This document shows positions 9,975 to 44,176 of a stretch of 62,503 bases of DNA, one piece after another (position 1 is the stretch's first letter; each line of letters begins with the position of its first letter). Where the stretch lies: positions 1-62,503 of IMG/VR virus record IMGVR_UViG_3300027834_000006; one strand, given 5' to 3'. Source of the stretch: a virus. The notes below the pieces were generated by a model. The model saw only the letters and a list, made by a program, of their open reading frames with translations. It ran no database searches and was not told where the DNA came from. A program made the translations under genes and the position numbers.

Positions 9975-10283
9975 TTAATACTTCATCGCTTCTTCGAGCT
10001 GGTTTCTTTTTTGCTCGAATACATTTTTGTATTTCTGTGAAATAGACTTTTTCTTTTTTTGAGGTTCCGCGGTAGTGGTGGTACTGGGTCTCGCGCTGGT
10101 AGTTGTAGTGCTTGGTCTCATGCTGGTGGTAGTTGTGGTGCTAGGCCTCGCAGTAGTGGTTGTAGTAGTAGGCTTCGCAGTAGTAGTTGTAGTGGGAGCG
10201 CTTATCCCATGCGATTTTCTTCTTATGGCTTCTAGCGTTATTGGTTTGCCACCTATTTTTACCGTTCCTCGTAAACGTCCCAT
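9975..10283 (-). CDS. Thr-rich mucin-like repeat protein
   Basis: The 102-residue product has a basic N-terminus ('MGRLRGTVKIGGKPITLEAI'), a central low-complexity region of Thr runs separated by Ala/Arg-Pro ('TTTTTAKPTTTTTTARPS' type units, about residues 30-72), and a charged, helical C-terminus ('QKYKNVFEQKRNQLEEAMKY'). It lies between portal and scaffold. Such Thr/Pro repeats are classical targets for O-glycosylation, and this phage carries a glycosyltransferase cassette 8-18 kb upstream in the same transcription direction. It could be a glycosylated head stalk or a minor scaffold. No family was recognised. Confidence 0.75.
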   Translation of the reverse strand: MGRLRGTVKIGGKPITLEAIRRKSHGISAPTTTTTAKPTTTTTTARPSTTTTTSMRPSTTTTSARPSTTTTAEPQKKKKSISQKYKNVFEQKRNQLEEAMKY

Positions 10284-12766: not shown

Positions 12767-14059
12767 TCATACAGGGATATGCAGGCAATCTGTGGCCCAT
12801 TTTTTTATAGAATTAATGGGATAACAAGAACCCTCTATGAGCATTTCCTTGTAGAAATTATATGTTTCTAACTTCGGGCATTTGTCTATGGCCCTCTTCA
12901 AACAATCCCTGGCGGCAACAAAATCGCCCAATTGTCTATGTGCTAAACTCTGTAATCCCAAAAAACTACCCTCGCAATAATCGACATCTTCGGACTGATT
13001 CATTTTCCACTCACCAGAGAGATCCAATGCTTCATTGTATCTTTTATTTTCCAGAAGATAATGAACATATCGAACCAGCAAAACATTGCTAAAATAAGTA
13101 TACTTTTTTAACATGTCTCTACTACTATAGGTATCTAGGCTGGGAAAATGATTCATTTGTATATCTTTTATGTTGGCAATGAGAAGATCGTTTTCGTCAA
13201 GGGCACCAGCAATCTCTTCCCGCGATACCCCATCCAAACGCATGTCTGCATCGGGATTCTCCGATAAAAGAAAAAACATACACTTCTTATGGCCTGCATA
13301 GTCGAAAGAGTCCACTTGGAACCCGCACCGTGCGGCCAATGATTTGAATGTCCTGTATGAAAAAGTATAATTATGTGCAGATGACAAAAAGGCATCGGAC
13401 GCAATAAGTGGATACGGAAACATAACCGATGGTACTTCAACCAATGCCTGTCCCCCATCGTTCAAAAGCAAACGCACCGACTCCAATGTTTCGCCGGGAT
13501 CATACATGTGTTCTATAACATTACACATCACAACCAAATCATATTTTTTGCAATCTTTGTGGTCCTTGTGAAATCTGCCATGTTCAACCTCAATGCCATT
13601 GACCTTCATTGCCAATTCACAACTTCTCCTGTCGGGGTCCATACCGTATACCTCTGCTCCCATACTGCGCATACCCCTCATAAGCGTCCCCATACCGCCC
13701 CCAATCTCCAACACGGATTTCCCCTTCAGGTCATACCCGATTTCCTTCAACCAGTCCAATGTGTATACTGTTGTCATAACTCCATCCACAACCGCTGTAC
13801 CGGGAATTCCCGCTTGCAGTCTCGACTTGTATTTCATGGCGTAATCTTTGTCGTAAAAATCACGCTGGGTTTCCCTTGTCATCATTGGATTTTTGTATAC
13901 CATCCCGCAATCATCGCACACCACGTCTGTCTTATGATAAACCCTACCGTCTTCATCGTCTATAAAAACCAATGGCTGCCATGGTTTCTTGGTTCTTAGG
14001 GTAGAGCAACAAGAACTCCCACATATGATACAATCCCTGGTTTCTTCTTCGTATTTCAT
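12767..14059 (-). CDS. Zinc-binding SAM methyltransferase with TPR-like C-terminus
   Basis: The start at 14059 is chosen because AAGGAGACTCAA precedes this ATG; a longer frame overlaps the upstream gene. The 430-residue product has an N-terminal zinc site (CIICGSSCC with CDDCG ~45 residues later) as in sugar C-methyltransferases and related enzymes. A class I SAM fold follows with motif I 'SVLEIGGGMGTLM', an acidic end to strand 2 in 'VYGMDPDRRS', and motif 'DLVVMCNVIEHMYDPG'. A C-terminal helical, TPR-like region follows ('RYNEALDLSGEWKMN', 'AARDCLKRAIDKCP'). It probably methylates a sugar or protein within the surface-modification cassette. Confidence 0.8.
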   Translation of the reverse strand: MKYEEETRDCIICGSSCCSTLRTKKPWQPLVFIDDEDGRVYHKTDVVCDDCGMVYKNPMMTRETQRDFYDKDYAMKYKSRLQAGIPGTAVVDGVMTTVYTLDWLKEIGYDLKGKSVLEIGGGMGTLMRGMRSMGAEVYGMDPDRRSCELAMKVNGIEVEHGRFHKDHKDCKKYDLVVMCNVIEHMYDPGETLESVRLLLNDGGQALVEVPSVMFPYPLIASDAFLSSAHNYTFSYRTFKSLAARCGFQVDSFDYAGHKKCMFFLLSENPDADMRLDGVSREEIAGALDENDLLIANIKDIQMNHFPSLDTYSSRDMLKKYTYFSNVLLVRYVHYLLENKRYNEALDLSGEWKMNQSEDVDYCEGSFLGLQSLAHRQLGDFVAARDCLKRAIDKCPKLETYNFYKEMLIEGSCYPINSIKKWATDCLHIPV

Positions 14060-14700
14060 TTGAGTCTCCTTGAGGTTATGTGTCGAATAAACTGCTTTCC
14101 TATGAATTCTGTATACGCCGGAGGAATACATTCCTTCAAACCCTTAAAGTCCATCCAGTCAATTCCATACGCAAGAGGAGCATTTTTTATTGTTTTTGGC
14201 AAAATTCCAAGTTTTTTTCTTAATTTTCTGCTTGCCTGACTTGCTGTTGTCACCAATAGTGGAACCTGAGCATGATTACACTGCATCGCTACTTCAACGG
14301 GGAAAGATGTCTCAAAGTATCTATGCCTTTGGCAGCGCAAGCCAAACATTGATCCGCACAGCATTATAGGATCGTTAAGCTCTTTTTTTGCTCCAGCGAC
14401 ATTCTCAATGATATAGTGCTTCATGGATCGTATAAGCTTTTGCCTGACACTATTAATTGATTTTTCATGGTTGCCTCGAAATTCTTTAGGTGTTAAATGA
14501 CTATATGCTTGGCACGGTGGACTCGCGTGGATCACATCAAAGCCATCGAGCGGAAAATTCAAGGCATCTGCCAGATAAAATTCAAAAGGGTATCTCGGTT
14601 GGGGTTCATTATCTACACCAACAATTTCAAAGCCCGCCAAGTCATACCCCATGGAAGCTCCCCCAGACCCACAATATAAGTCTAATAATTTCAACTTCAT
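14056..14700 (-). CDS. Short DNA (cytosine-5) methyltransferase
   Basis: The 214-residue product carries C5-methyltransferase motifs. Motif I is 'LLDLYCGSGGASMGYDLAGF', motif IV with the catalytic Cys is 'HASPPCQAYSH', and motif VI is 'YIIENVAGAKK'; 'LCGSMFGLRCQRHRYFETSF' matches motif VIII. It is much shorter than bacterial enzymes of ~330-400 residues, so the target recognition part is minimal, as in other phage enzymes. It would protect phage DNA from host restriction. No restriction partner is present. It overlaps the next gene by four bases (ATGA-like). Confidence 0.88.
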   Translation of the reverse strand: MKLKLLDLYCGSGGASMGYDLAGFEIVGVDNEPQPRYPFEFYLADALNFPLDGFDVIHASPPCQAYSHLTPKEFRGNHEKSINSVRQKLIRSMKHYIIENVAGAKKELNDPIMLCGSMFGLRCQRHRYFETSFPVEVAMQCNHAQVPLLVTTASQASRKLRKKLGILPKTIKNAPLAYGIDWMDFKGLKECIPPAYTEFIGKQFIRHITSRRLK

Positions 14701-14764: not shown

Positions 14765-15907
14765 TTACTTTAAAAGCACGGAAGGATCACCCATCAGATT
14801 CATGCAAGCTAATTGCATGGCAACGGGACGACTGATGACATTCGGAGCATTCCTATAATATTCTATACCATTATTAATCCATTCTTTTGCTGCCATTCCG
14901 AGATTATCGCATTCGCTCATATAATCAAATAAACACTTGCCGCCAATCTTTTCGTCTTGTTTGGTTCCTGCCTGGATCAACCCGGACACCACCAAACTTC
15001 GGATATTGGATCTAAAAAAAGAATTAAGCATGTTCCCTGTAATGGTGAAATTCTGCCCACTGTAAAAAGGGGTCACTTTTCTATTCCACTCACCGACTTG
15101 ACAACCGAATACTATGATAACTGACGGACCCCTGTCTCGCTGCAAGAGATTGAATGCATCACTGGCCTTGAAATCCCCGATCTGCCCCGAGTGACTATGC
15201 CCCAAAAGATACATAGTCCCGATATCTTTACTGAAAAACAATTCTTGGGTTTGCTCATTGACCCTTATGCTGGTTTTTAAGCCTCTAATCGGATCGCAGA
15301 CTTTATCGAAACAATGATGGAGGGTTTCCATTTTTACTTGCCATTCACTAACCTGACCAGTGAATTTGCCTTTTGTGTTTACGATAACACCACATGAATC
15401 CATGGCGTTATTCCGTTGTGGTTTAATCTTAGCTGTAAATTCTTCCAGTTTATCCGAGTAACCAGCATTGCCATACCCGGAAATTGTATTGGCAAATCTT
15501 CTCCATGGAGTATTAAAATAATTCCTTGAACATGGAATCCATCGCGAAACCCAAACATCCTGAGTGTAATTCAAGGGAAATTCACTTTCCTCAAATACTC
15601 CGCTATTATTGGAATCTAGCCACCTGTTAGTAAAATTACCATATAGATTGTCGGTGATTCCCAAGTCTTCCTCTAATGATTGCCGATGAATTCTAGCATA
15701 AGGAACCATCTCATCAAAAATCATAATGCCTTTAACTATGTCCTTATATTTCAATACTTTATTCCGCCAACCATTAAAATCAGAAGAACCATGCATGAGA
15801 AGAATACCTTCCATGCCCATGCGTAAGTTTGAACTCATGGCATCTAGCGTTTCTCTGACTTTCCCATAATGTTTGGCATTTTTATAATGCAATAGTCCCA
15901 AAATCAT
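14765..15907 (-). CDS. Gingipain (C25)/caspase-like clan CD cysteine peptidase
   Basis: The 380-residue product has the clan CD layout: a hydrophobic strand then 'MYLLGHSHSGQIGDF' (His 237/239 followed by Gly) and, 30 residues later, 'SVIIVFGCQVGEW' with Cys 269. A C25-type ending 'NLMGDPSVLL' closes the protein. Upstream, 'GILLMHGSSDF' and 'DVWVSRWIPCSR' also fit the C25 family. There is no signal peptide, so it would act in the cytoplasm, unlike gingipains. It directly follows a HigA-like regulator gene. A GTG at 15916 is an alternative start. Toxin, maturation protease and anti-defence roles are all possible. Confidence 0.75.
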   Translation of the reverse strand: MILGLLHYKNAKHYGKVRETLDAMSSNLRMGMEGILLMHGSSDFNGWRNKVLKYKDIVKGIMIFDEMVPYARIHRQSLEEDLGITDNLYGNFTNRWLDSNNSGVFEESEFPLNYTQDVWVSRWIPCSRNYFNTPWRRFANTISGYGNAGYSDKLEEFTAKIKPQRNNAMDSCGVIVNTKGKFTGQVSEWQVKMETLHHCFDKVCDPIRGLKTSIRVNEQTQELFFSKDIGTMYLLGHSHSGQIGDFKASDAFNLLQRDRGPSVIIVFGCQVGEWNRKVTPFYSGQNFTITGNMLNSFFRSNIRSLVVSGLIQAGTKQDEKIGGKCLFDYMSECDNLGMAAKEWINNGIEYYRNAPNVISRPVAMQLACMNLMGDPSVLLK

Positions 15908-15908
15908 G

Positions 15909-16160
15909 TCAATCACCCATCCTTTCTTCGTAGTTTTTCTGCAAATTATTCCAAAAATCTTCAGACATTAAAAAAACCAACGAAAGAGAGCGTGCTATTT
16001 CTGGAGAAATAGGGTCTTTCCCGGACAAAATGTCATCGATTACAACAGGATGCAGTCTCATGCGAATAGCCAACTTTGCCCGCGACATATTATATGTTTC
16101 CAAAACTTCTCTCAATGTCTCACCTGGATGTATTGCCATCGGCGCTTTATAGTTGCTCAT
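15909..16160 (-). CDS. higA: HigA-type XRE-family regulator/antitoxin
   Basis: The 83-residue product closely follows the HigA pattern: 'IHPGETLREVLETYNMSRAK' (helix-turn-helix entry), 'RLHPVVIDDILSGKDPISPE', and the typical ending 'SEDFWNNLQKNYEERM'. HigA proteins repress their own operon and neutralise partner toxins. No HigB-type RelE toxin is next to it; the partner gene is instead the C25-like peptidase, starting within a few bases of its stop. GAAAGGAGATT precedes the ATG. Two near-identical inverted repeats lie immediately upstream (16171-16232) and could be its operators. Confidence 0.88.
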   Translation of the reverse strand: MSNYKAPMAIHPGETLREVLETYNMSRAKLAIRMRLHPVVIDDILSGKDPISPEIARSLSLVFLMSEDFWNNLQKNYEERMGD

Positions 16161-16170
16161 AATCTCCTTT

Positions 16171-16232
16171 CAAGCTTGTTTATAGGTCAAGCCATGAATA
16201 ATTAGCCTGGCTTGTTTACAGATCAAGCCAGG
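16171..16232. repeat. Paired palindromic repeats at the terminase 3' end / HigA upstream region
   Basis: Two copies of a 24-base word differ at three positions. Copy 1 includes the last codons of the terminase and forms a perfect palindrome (CCTGGCTTG, 9-base loop, CAAGCCAGG; 16206-16232). Copy 2 lies 36 bases away, just before the HigA gene, with arms GCTTG/CAAGC (16174-16192). Read on the - strand, both copies encode Ser-Trp-Leu-Asp-Leu-stop and the three differences are all in third codon positions. They may be operators for HigA, or copy 2 may be a remnant of a terminase 3' end left by insertion of the HigA-peptidase pair. Confidence 0.7.
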
Positions 16233-17988
16233 ACTTACCGGTGGTTGTTTTCCCATAACCAAAGGTATCGTAATATAGGGGATTTTTTTTGCTAGGCTCT
16301 CTTTCGCGCGAGGGCTGCATTACGCCCAGGGCATCTATATTGGTCCCGCCATACTCCAATTGAATCCCCTTGATGCCAATCAAAAACGCCATTACACGGT
16401 CATCCTTGCCCTTCCCGTAGGCGCTCGCCCCCTGGCTGGTATCATCACGAACAAATATCATCATCTCGCGTACAAGCTCGGCACTGTGAATAATCACAGA
16501 TCCATTATTTACGCAGTATCTTCCATGTGTAAGAAGATCAGGTTTGGACTGTGCTGTTGTCATCCATCCCAATTGACTGTTGGAAAACTCATTTATAGAG
16601 TCACGAACAACTCTTCTTATGACGTTCCAATACCCAGCCTTCTGAATGGCAGATAAAACAGCATGGCCATAACCAAATACTTCAGGCACCAATAGCGCAT
16701 TATTGTATATAGTACCCAGGGCTACGGCATAATTACCCAGTACCTCCGCATCTACCTTGCCATGCCATTCCGCTGCTTGACAGGCAAGCCATCCCTGGCG
16801 CATATCCATGACCCGTAAAACTTCCAAACATCCAAAATCAGTACTACCCGGTTCACCCGATGACGGGTCTATAGACACAACATACCTTTCTCCCTCTACT
16901 GGTCTTTCCCATATCTTCAGGCTCCCCAACGATTCCTTCCTAATGATACTGCCATCTATCTCGCCCACACTAACAGGATCACTGCATTTTTGTAGATATT
17001 TTTTCAGCTTATCTCTATCGAAAACGGTTCTTCCGCTCACCACGAAAGCCTCATCATCCGTGGTCGGATACTGTTCGTGAAAATTCTCCAGTCCCGTCTT
17101 GAGAACATTGCCGCTCACGCCTTCACCCAAAAAAGAGATTTGATATCTTCGCCAATTGAGTTGTTCCAATGTGGCGTTGTGCACATCTCTCAACTCCACC
17201 TCTTCATCGTTGAAGGTGTCGAGCAGTTCTTCTCTCTCATTGCCCATCAGCGGGCGGGTGTAACCTTCGTGCTTCAACCAACTGAAAAATAAAGGTTTAA
17301 ATACACTTTTACCCGCGGTTGCCTTCTTCCATTCATCGTAAAATGGTTCGCCGTTACCAGCCATACCATTAGCCGTAGACTCGATCACAACGAATGTACC
17401 GGGCAAATTGAAGGTGGTGGGTACAACTGCTTTTCTGACAGCATCGGCATCCCTATAGAAGGCATACTCCGAAAAATGTATGAAATGATTTCCGGTACTC
17501 AACCCGGCCTTGTCGGTACAAGATACTGTTTTCATGGAAGACTTCAGTCCCATAGATCTGCCTGTTTTTGTAAGAGCTGTACTCGGAGCATCAAAAACAA
17601 GCCTGGAACCACTCTTGTACTTAACCATGGGTTTGAGTTGGCGGGGAAGATACTCATAAAATACATGAGACATATTATGTATATACTCACACCCTTTATC
17701 ATCAGCAGAAATAGTGATCCCCTGACGATGCGACTTCAAATGGCATTGCTGAAACATTCTTGATTGAACATACGTTGATACGCCATGTCTCCTTGCCTTG
17801 AGTATGATCAATAGCACCGGTTTCTTTTGCCCAATAAAGCCATTCCATACCCTATTTACCTCAACCTGAACATATCGATCATTGAAATCGAACTTCACCA
17901 ACCCCTCACCGGCCTGGATATACAATAAATTAGGCGAATAATAATCATAATTACCCAGGCGTTTCAAGTCGATTATTCTTTTTCCCAT
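16216..17988 (-). CDS. terL: Terminase large subunit
   Basis: The 590-residue product has an ATPase with a Walker A variant 'KARRHGVST' (residues 64-72), Walker B 'HFIHFSEYAF' ending in Glu 174, and a coupling motif 'IESTANGM' (~202). The RNase H-like nuclease begins 'VVSIDPSSG' (Asp 374) and ends with 'KGKDDRVMAF'. It powers DNA packaging through the portal. The start overlaps the upstream zinc-finger gene by 16 bp. Its stop lies inside a palindrome, and its last five codons are echoed just downstream. Confidence 0.95.
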   Translation of the reverse strand: MGKRIIDLKRLGNYDYYSPNLLYIQAGEGLVKFDFNDRYVQVEVNRVWNGFIGQKKPVLLIILKARRHGVSTYVQSRMFQQCHLKSHRQGITISADDKGCEYIHNMSHVFYEYLPRQLKPMVKYKSGSRLVFDAPSTALTKTGRSMGLKSSMKTVSCTDKAGLSTGNHFIHFSEYAFYRDADAVRKAVVPTTFNLPGTFVVIESTANGMAGNGEPFYDEWKKATAGKSVFKPLFFSWLKHEGYTRPLMGNEREELLDTFNDEEVELRDVHNATLEQLNWRRYQISFLGEGVSGNVLKTGLENFHEQYPTTDDEAFVVSGRTVFDRDKLKKYLQKCSDPVSVGEIDGSIIRKESLGSLKIWERPVEGERYVVSIDPSSGEPGSTDFGCLEVLRVMDMRQGWLACQAAEWHGKVDAEVLGNYAVALGTIYNNALLVPEVFGYGHAVLSAIQKAGYWNVIRRVVRDSINEFSNSQLGWMTTAQSKPDLLTHGRYCVNNGSVIIHSAELVREMMIFVRDDTSQGASAYGKGKDDRVMAFLIGIKGIQLEYGGTNIDALGVMQPSREREPSKKNPLYYDTFGYGKTTTGKSWLDL

Positions 17989-43480: not shown

Positions 43481-43507
43481 CCCCATGAATGTGCGAGGGC
43501 ATACAAC

Positions 43508-43684
43508 ATGAAAGAGGACCTTGTTTTACGGCGGCTGACTTACGTGATGAGGAGTTATGCCACGGCCATTTGTGGTATGATTTCTGGGAAAGTAAAGGCA
43601 ATAAGATGGAGAGACGGACCTGGGTTTTTTGTGTTCTGGATTGTTTCTTGGGGAGGGGCATATTTGTTGAGCCTCCTCCGGTAG
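43508..43684 (+). CDS. Truncated member of the three-copy membrane/LPD29 family
   Basis: The 58-residue product starts 'MKEDLVLRRLTYVMRSYATA' and shares a 41-base identical DNA stretch (43553-43593) with the gene at 43727 (43772-43812). It has one membrane helix and then stops (TAG at 43682). Just past this stop another frame reads 'VALKTEL', matching the start of the LPD29-like domain in the longer copy. The gene therefore looks like a decaying duplicate that lost its C-terminal domain by frameshift. Confidence 0.6.
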   Translation: MKEDLVLRRLTYVMRSYATAICGMISGKVKAIRWRDGPGFFVFWIVSWGGAYLLSLLR

Positions 43685-43726
43685 CACTTAAGACCGAACT
43701 ATAACAAATGACGGAGGGCATCCAAA

Positions 43727-44176
43727 ATGGAAGAAGAGCTTGCCTTGAGGCGCCTGGCTTGCGTGATAAGAAGTTATGCCACGGCCATTTGTGGTATGAT
43801 TTCTGGGAAAGTGAAAAAATTGAGCGAAGTGAGATCAGGCGTGATATCGGGAATTGTAATTTGGTTGTGCATTGTTGTTTTTGTGTGGGGTTTCTTGCGG
43901 TTGAAGATTTCCCCCTATACCGCGTTAGCGCTCAAGGCCGAACTAAACAGCGAGTTCCCTGGGGTTGAGTTCTCGATTGAACGTAACAGATGGCATTCCG
44001 TGATTGTTGACTGGACCGACGGACCCGAAAACAATCAGGTAACTCCAATAGTGAGGGGATACGCGTGCGGGCAGACAATTCGTTATACTTCGACTGAGGA
44101 ATCAGGCAAAGAGGGGGTCTGTCTCAATGTATTTCATGAAGCCTGGCCTTGTCCAATGATGAGAAGAGGTTCATAA
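43727..44176 (+). CDS. Membrane-anchored LPD29-like protein
   Basis: The 149-residue product has the family opening 'MEEELALRRLACVIRSYATA', a membrane helix ('SGVISGIVIWLCIVVFVWGF'), and a C-terminal LPD29-like domain ('ALKAELNSEFPGVEFSIERN', 'VIVDWTDGPENNQVTPIVRG'). It is the only family member predicted to sit at the membrane, with the domain on one side. ACGGAGGGCATCCAAA precedes the ATG. Its stop overlaps the next ATG. Confidence 0.78.
   Translation: MEEELALRRLACVIRSYATAICGMISGKVKKLSEVRSGVISGIVIWLCIVVFVWGFLRLKISPYTALALKAELNSEFPGVEFSIERNRWHSVIVDWTDGPENNQVTPIVRGYACGQTIRYTSTEESGKEGVCLNVFHEAWPCPMMRRGS

Follow-up and report, generated by a model that had tools for sequence, protein, structure and literature searches.

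An Echo of the Terminase Gene End at the Seam of a Three-Gene Cargo Block in a Viral Genome

The Question Raised by the terL-HigA Gap

Why should the end of an essential phage gene be spelled twice? In the DNA analyzed here, which comes from an uncultured tailed phage (the window, a stretch of 62,503 nucleotides considered as a whole), the last codons of the large terminase gene terL recur, slightly altered, in the short gap that separates terL from a gene encoding a HigA-family helix-turn-helix protein. The original prediction offered two answers, namely, that the copies are tandem operators of the HigA-like protein or that the second copy is the leftover 3' end of a related terminase, left behind by an exchange that inserted a HigA-protease pair. 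The seams of phage mosaicism seldom keep readable traces, and in the window a terminase tail seems to survive beside a block of cargo. The relevant features are as follows.

16216..17988, minus strand: large terminase gene terL, 590 aa, with a conserved W-L-D-L-like C-terminus
16210..16233, minus strand: copy 1, comprising the last five terL codons, the stop and ACAAGC, and forming the core of an inverted repeat with perfect 9-bp arms (16206-16232)
16161..16215, minus strand: gap of 55 bp between the terL stop and the HigA start, with no sigma-70-like promoter and no terminator-like site
16174..16197, minus strand: copy 2 (the echo), reading S-W-L-D-L-stop, lying within no open gene, with GCTTG-N9-CAAGC arms
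15909..16160, minus strand: HigA-family helix-turn-helix protein, 83 aa (TIGR02607), first gene of the putative inserted block
14765..15916, minus strand: 383-aa orphan, matching no library; its GTG start overlaps the HigA end
14056..14700, minus strand: C5-cytosine DNA methyltransferase-like (Dcm-like) protein, 214 aa, last gene of the block
12767..14059, minus strand: SAM methyltransferase gene MT, found directly after terL in 9 of 11 relatives

The Terminase Tail Is Present in Two Copies

Copy 1 (minus strand, 16233-16210) reads TCC TGG CTT GAT CTG TAA ACAAGC, that is, the last 18 bases of terL followed by six further bases, and encodes S-W-L-D-L-stop, the true terL end. Copy 2 (minus strand, 16197-16174) reads TCA TGG CTT GAC CTA TAA ACAAGC; taken as a terL ending, the echo has the sequence TCATGGCTTGACCTATAAACAAGCTTG. 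It lies downstream of the terL end, at a start-to-start distance of 36 bp, and its 3' end is about 5 bases ahead of the HigA ribosome-binding site. The predicted repeat was thus found at the right site, although its exact coordinates are 16174-16233 rather than 16171-16232, and the properties ascribed to it were confirmed: the copies are identical at 21 of 24 positions, their three differences (TCC/TCA, GAT/GAC, and CTG/CTA) are all silent third-position changes if copy 2 is read in the terL frame, and the inverted arms GCTTG-N9-CAAGC are present in each. The noncoding ACAAGC, six bases long, does not differ between the copies despite the three changed synonymous sites. The similarity breaks off sharply upstream of the serine codon, leaving only 18 coding bases in support of a terminase origin, and the repeat is not clearly continued in the bases that flank the 24-mer on either side.

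In shuffled versions of the window, the two-copy pattern was matched 0.01 times per shuffle on average and no shuffle contained two matches, a test that is somewhat biased because the pattern was built from both copies. An unbiased scan for pairs of 24-mers with at least 21/24 identity within 300 bp returned three places in the window and none in 20 shuffles. The terL-tail repeat is real, and chance is excluded as its source. Both copies of the motif lie at the terL-HigA gap and none was found elsewhere in the 62.5-kb window, which rules out a dispersed, REP-like repeat family. The other two places returned by the scan are imperfect repeats near 10.1 kb and 43.5 kb: a tandem repeat with a period of 27-30 (10071-10190), near the end of a small minus-strand open reading frame (ORF; 9975-10283), and a direct repeat with copies 219 bp apart in a plus-strand region (43495-43780).

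A Three-Gene Block at a Junction That Accepts Cargo

Searches with TerL and a TerL alignment identified eleven related IMG/VR contigs (L002-L011 and L014) with TerL proteins 53-59% identical to that of the window, all comparisons thus being made below 60% TerL identity. A portal-alignment search yielded no additional terL-MT junctions, and a terL scan of genome contigs gave one match only, which was distant. Where the contigs reach, the gene order of the relatives is MptE-like, g202, terL, MT, g211, and portal, without the cargo. In 9 of the 11, terL runs straight into MT; L010 carries a different small ORF of 122 aa between the two genes, and L011 carries an HNH-like ORF (a label given by eye to a motif that Pfam did not recognize) together with a structured RNA-like stretch of about 108 nt. 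Genes for HigA, the 383-aa orphan, and the Dcm-like protein were absent near terL in all 11 relatives. Given this absence and the other inserts in L010 and L011, the terL-MT junction is an insertion site for cargo, and the block of the window is most simply read as an insertion at this cargo-accepting junction, loss in all eleven relatives being less economical.

The inserted unit consists of three genes and not of a pair as had been proposed. The first encodes a HigA-family antitoxin by its match to TIGR02607 (56 bits; cut-off, 47.7), but an adjacent HigB toxin gene is missing, the neighbors of HigA being terL and the 383-aa orphan without a family match. For the orphan, the designation as a protease found no support in searches of Pfam, PHROGs, NCBIfam, PADLOC, or the PDB and derives from a pattern seen by eye: the clan-CD-like GHSHSG...FGCQ (GHS...FGC) hints at a candidate caspase/CHAT-like peptidase. 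Its single-sequence fold has a pLDDT of 34, which is too low to use, and relatives of this protein were found neither in viral contigs nor among phage records or plasmids. The pair of HigA and the 383-aa protein was likewise absent from the relatives and viral contigs searched, and a search of the whole records of six relatives, run without a positive control, did not retrieve it. The stop of the Dcm-like gene overlaps the MT start (14059) as ATGA, the MT start having been placed where the relatives align, in preference to the first ATG in its frame.

Proteins from otherwise unrelated phage contigs (L083-L091) share 63-66% identity with the Dcm-like protein, and the contigs of its relatives (53-66%) had no match to the other nine window proteins searched. 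Judged by these identities, the Dcm-like protein seems nearer to its matches than is TerL to its own relatives, a pattern that a mobile gene would be expected to show. The GC3 values of the cargo genes (0.38-0.41) fall within the spread of the other genes (mean, 0.437; SD, 0.043), and GC3 was rejected as a means of flagging the cargo as foreign.

Like phage morons and the mosaic cargo segments described in PMC3029335, the block adds genes where relatives have two contiguous neighbors. It differs in that neither an own promoter nor an own terminator was recognized: the scan of the gap gave neither a sigma-70 promoter nor a terminator-like site, and the final cargo gene runs into the start of the next. 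The three-gene block is classed as a cargo insertion and not as a strict moron.

The Echo as a Possible Leftover Terminase Tail

The echo sits at the seam, on the terL side of the block. In the relatives, terL ends in WLNL, WLEL, WENL, WQDL, WLDD, WLDL, and similar C-termini, and L011 ends in KSWLDL, the same as the window. Since the C-terminus of the family is W-L-D-L-like, the W-L-D-L-stop of the echo spells a genuine terminase ending. Relatives that lack the cargo and still have both copies would speak against a leftover tail, and none was encountered: an echo of their own terL tail is absent in all 11 relatives, whose best matches of 12-15/21 represent background.

On this evidence we tentatively favor, at a little less than even confidence, the reading of the echo as a recombination scar, namely, the leftover tail of a donor terminase. 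A related phage would have supplied the block of HigA-like, 383-aa orphan, and Dcm-like genes, with the final bases of the donor's terL still on it, and recombination with little homology would have joined this block just behind the recipient's own terL stop. A homing-type nuclease at the junction may have provoked the recombination; this role is proposed because of the HNH-like ORF at the same junction in L011 and because nuclease genes are frequent near terminases. A published survey found homing endonuclease genes often beside terminase genes and at exchange boundaries (PMC10448857), but the cargo of the window contains no nuclease gene. An ATGA overlap links the terL stop to the MT start in L004 and L005; if the ancestor of the window had a similar overlap, one of these gene ends must have been rebuilt upon insertion. 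The inverted arms would already have belonged to the terminase tail and may or may not now serve as a HigA site or as an RNA hairpin. The donor, the involvement of a nuclease, and the order of events are all inferred.

The original prediction of an exchange thus stands in its insertion half, with a block that starts exactly at the terL end and is missing from 11 of 11 relatives; its donor-tail half is conjectural, as the viral-contig searches revealed no donor phage for the terminase tail and no related phage with a terL ending in TCATGGCTTGACCTATAAACAAGCTTG followed by HigA. A search of the viral contigs with the two-copy pattern also gave no match. The scar reading is weakened by the small number of coding bases (18), by the unchanged ACAAGC, and by the fact that in most relatives the next gene follows the terL stop almost immediately, without ACAAGC. 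The lack of a matching copy at the Dcm-MT end and the unremarkable GC3 of the cargo also count against it. A target-site duplication of a mobile element was rejected, the best match at the Dcm-MT end being 12/24.

Coding Pattern and Inverted Arms

The original prediction held that the synonymous pattern favors a leftover terminase end and the arms an operator. Each pattern exists, but both arguments are weaker than stated. Upon enumeration of random substitution triples, 6.8% were coding-silent, 18% left the ten arm bases intact, and 0.32% did both; the silent-pattern argument rests on three differences, too few to decide between the readings. All ten inner arm positions are identical between the copies, and the inner changes fall in the spacer. 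Coding constraint alone leaves the unchanged ACAAGC unexplained, and arm constraint alone leaves the silent pattern unexplained. The silent pattern and the intact arms together are modestly best fitted by a copy that was still a functional gene end while it diverged and whose arms were also kept or luckily remained unchanged. As the arms and the silent pattern are compatible, there is no need to choose between scar and operator; the two readings are not mutually exclusive, and the scar is possibly also used as a control site.

Copy 1 has perfect 9-bp arms and an RNA fold of -14.5 kcal/mol that was equaled by 1 of 200 shuffles. The fold of copy 2 (-7.8 kcal/mol) is bulged, with a weak extension of the arms. 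When the shared core was fixed and the flanks were randomized, the fold of copy 2 was equaled in 21-27% of trials and that of copy 1 in 0.1%. Because copy 2 folds no better than many random flanks, its arms came for the most part with the repeat and do not count as separate evidence of an operator. Palindromes with arms of at least 8 bp number 12 in the window versus 11.3 in shuffles, i.e., there is no excess. Since such palindromes sit at shuffle level across the window, a palindrome that arose by chance at the terL end and was duplicated together with the tail is a reasonable null hypothesis.

Less Probable Readings: Operators, Local Duplication, and RNA Hairpins

Under the operator reading, the HigA-like protein binds GCTTG-N9-CAAGC, with one site over the terL stop and the other before the HigA ribosome-binding site, and represses the cargo in an autoregulatory manner, as known for HigA and Aca proteins. 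This appears somewhat unlikely, although several features point to it: the TIGR02607 protein is encoded immediately downstream, the motif is confined to the region of the terL-HigA gap, and the inner arm positions are conserved. The 19-bp core has the overall length of the Vibrio cholerae HigA2 site, TGTACGC-N5-GCGTACA, which overlaps the -10 element (PMC11006873). The Pseudomonas aeruginosa HigA and V. cholerae HigA2 operators also share with the window an inverted repeat positioned directly ahead of a HigA-family gene. Nevertheless, the HigA2 site has 7-bp arms and a 5-bp spacer, as opposed to 5-bp arms and a 9-bp spacer here, a HigB gene is lacking, and the window has two direct copies 36 bp apart, one of them inside the terminase gene. 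This distance corresponds to 3.4 helical turns and places the sites on nearly opposite sides of the DNA. Furthermore, the scan of the gap, which covered promoters of the sigma-70 type only, detected none next to the inverted repeat, random flanks often match the extended pairing of copy 2, and the operator reading leaves unexplained why copy 2 should read as a terminase ending whose changes are all silent.

Aca autorepressors of anti-CRISPR operons are likewise small phage proteins with HigA-like folds that use one or two promoter inverted repeats (PMC9410906), but aca genes stand last in their operons, whereas the helix-turn-helix gene of the window is first in its block, no known acr gene accompanies it, and binding by the HigA-like protein is putative. 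Among phage records, HigA relatives reach no more than 39% identity; the operator comparison did not include them. Repressor sites that lie over gene ends are known from phages (PMC3029335); the stoperators of cluster A mycobacteriophages, which can overlap gene ends in this way, are asymmetric 13-base sites with many copies per genome, in contrast to the two sites at one place in the window. That the terminase stop region serves a dual use, as coding sequence and as a HigA-like operator, so that cargo with a spare tail brings its own control site, is improbable.

Local duplication is an unlikely alternative, in which replication slippage or a switch of strands at the copy 1 hairpin would have placed a second terL tail 36 bp further downstream within this phage, where it then drifted without function. 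The perfect 9-bp hairpin could promote template switching, and the copies, including the serine and ACAAGC, are closer to each other than to the tails of most relatives. A neutral copy, however, should not have all of its changes silent and outside the arms (a fraction of 0.0032 of random triples), and a repeat that is not clearly continued on either side of the 24-mer also speaks against it.

Least probable are two stem-loops that would keep terL translation apart from the HigA ribosome-binding site or act as a site of RNA processing or end protection: the fold of an 80-nt gap region has a z of -3.1, with AGGAG following immediately after the second stem, but hairpin 2 is weak, and no T-run, hence no intrinsic terminator, is present. 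A terminator was rejected because the gap contains no terminator-like site, copy 1 being followed by CTAATTATTC. Rfam gave no match in the window.

The terL Neighborhood as a Probable Site of Exchange

The recombination scar reading, with or without use of the arms, amounts to phage mosaicism of an ordinary type in which the seam is well preserved; readable tails at such seams are uncommon but do not represent a novel phenomenon. What is new here is that eleven relatives without the three genes point to the terL-MT junction as a cargo site, with the echo exactly at the seam. Other relatives carry other cargo at this junction, including the HNH-like ORF. If confirmed, the scar would document how accessory genes can enter a late operon without breaking an essential gene, and should HigA bind the arms, the seam would also illustrate how cargo of this type could arrive with its own control site.

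The 122-aa ORF of L010 (L010:5583-5936) is cysteine-rich; its frame opens ahead of the terL stop, and at its far end it overlaps the MT start. Inserts are also present just upstream of terL, in the form of a 266-aa ORF that is primase/Toprim-like by eye in L006 (L006:3377-4177) and several small ORFs in L010 (L010:3204-3820), and therefore both sides of terL accept cargo. In L011 (IMGVR_UViG_3300035698_012360), the stretch that follows the HNH-like ORF (L011:6483-6590) adopts a closed multi-branched predicted fold of about 108 nt, with -47.7 kcal/mol for 111 nt and a z of -4.8. It had no match in Rfam, and an exact 23-base pattern taken from it was absent from other viral contigs; the stretch may be a structured RNA associated with the nuclease gene.
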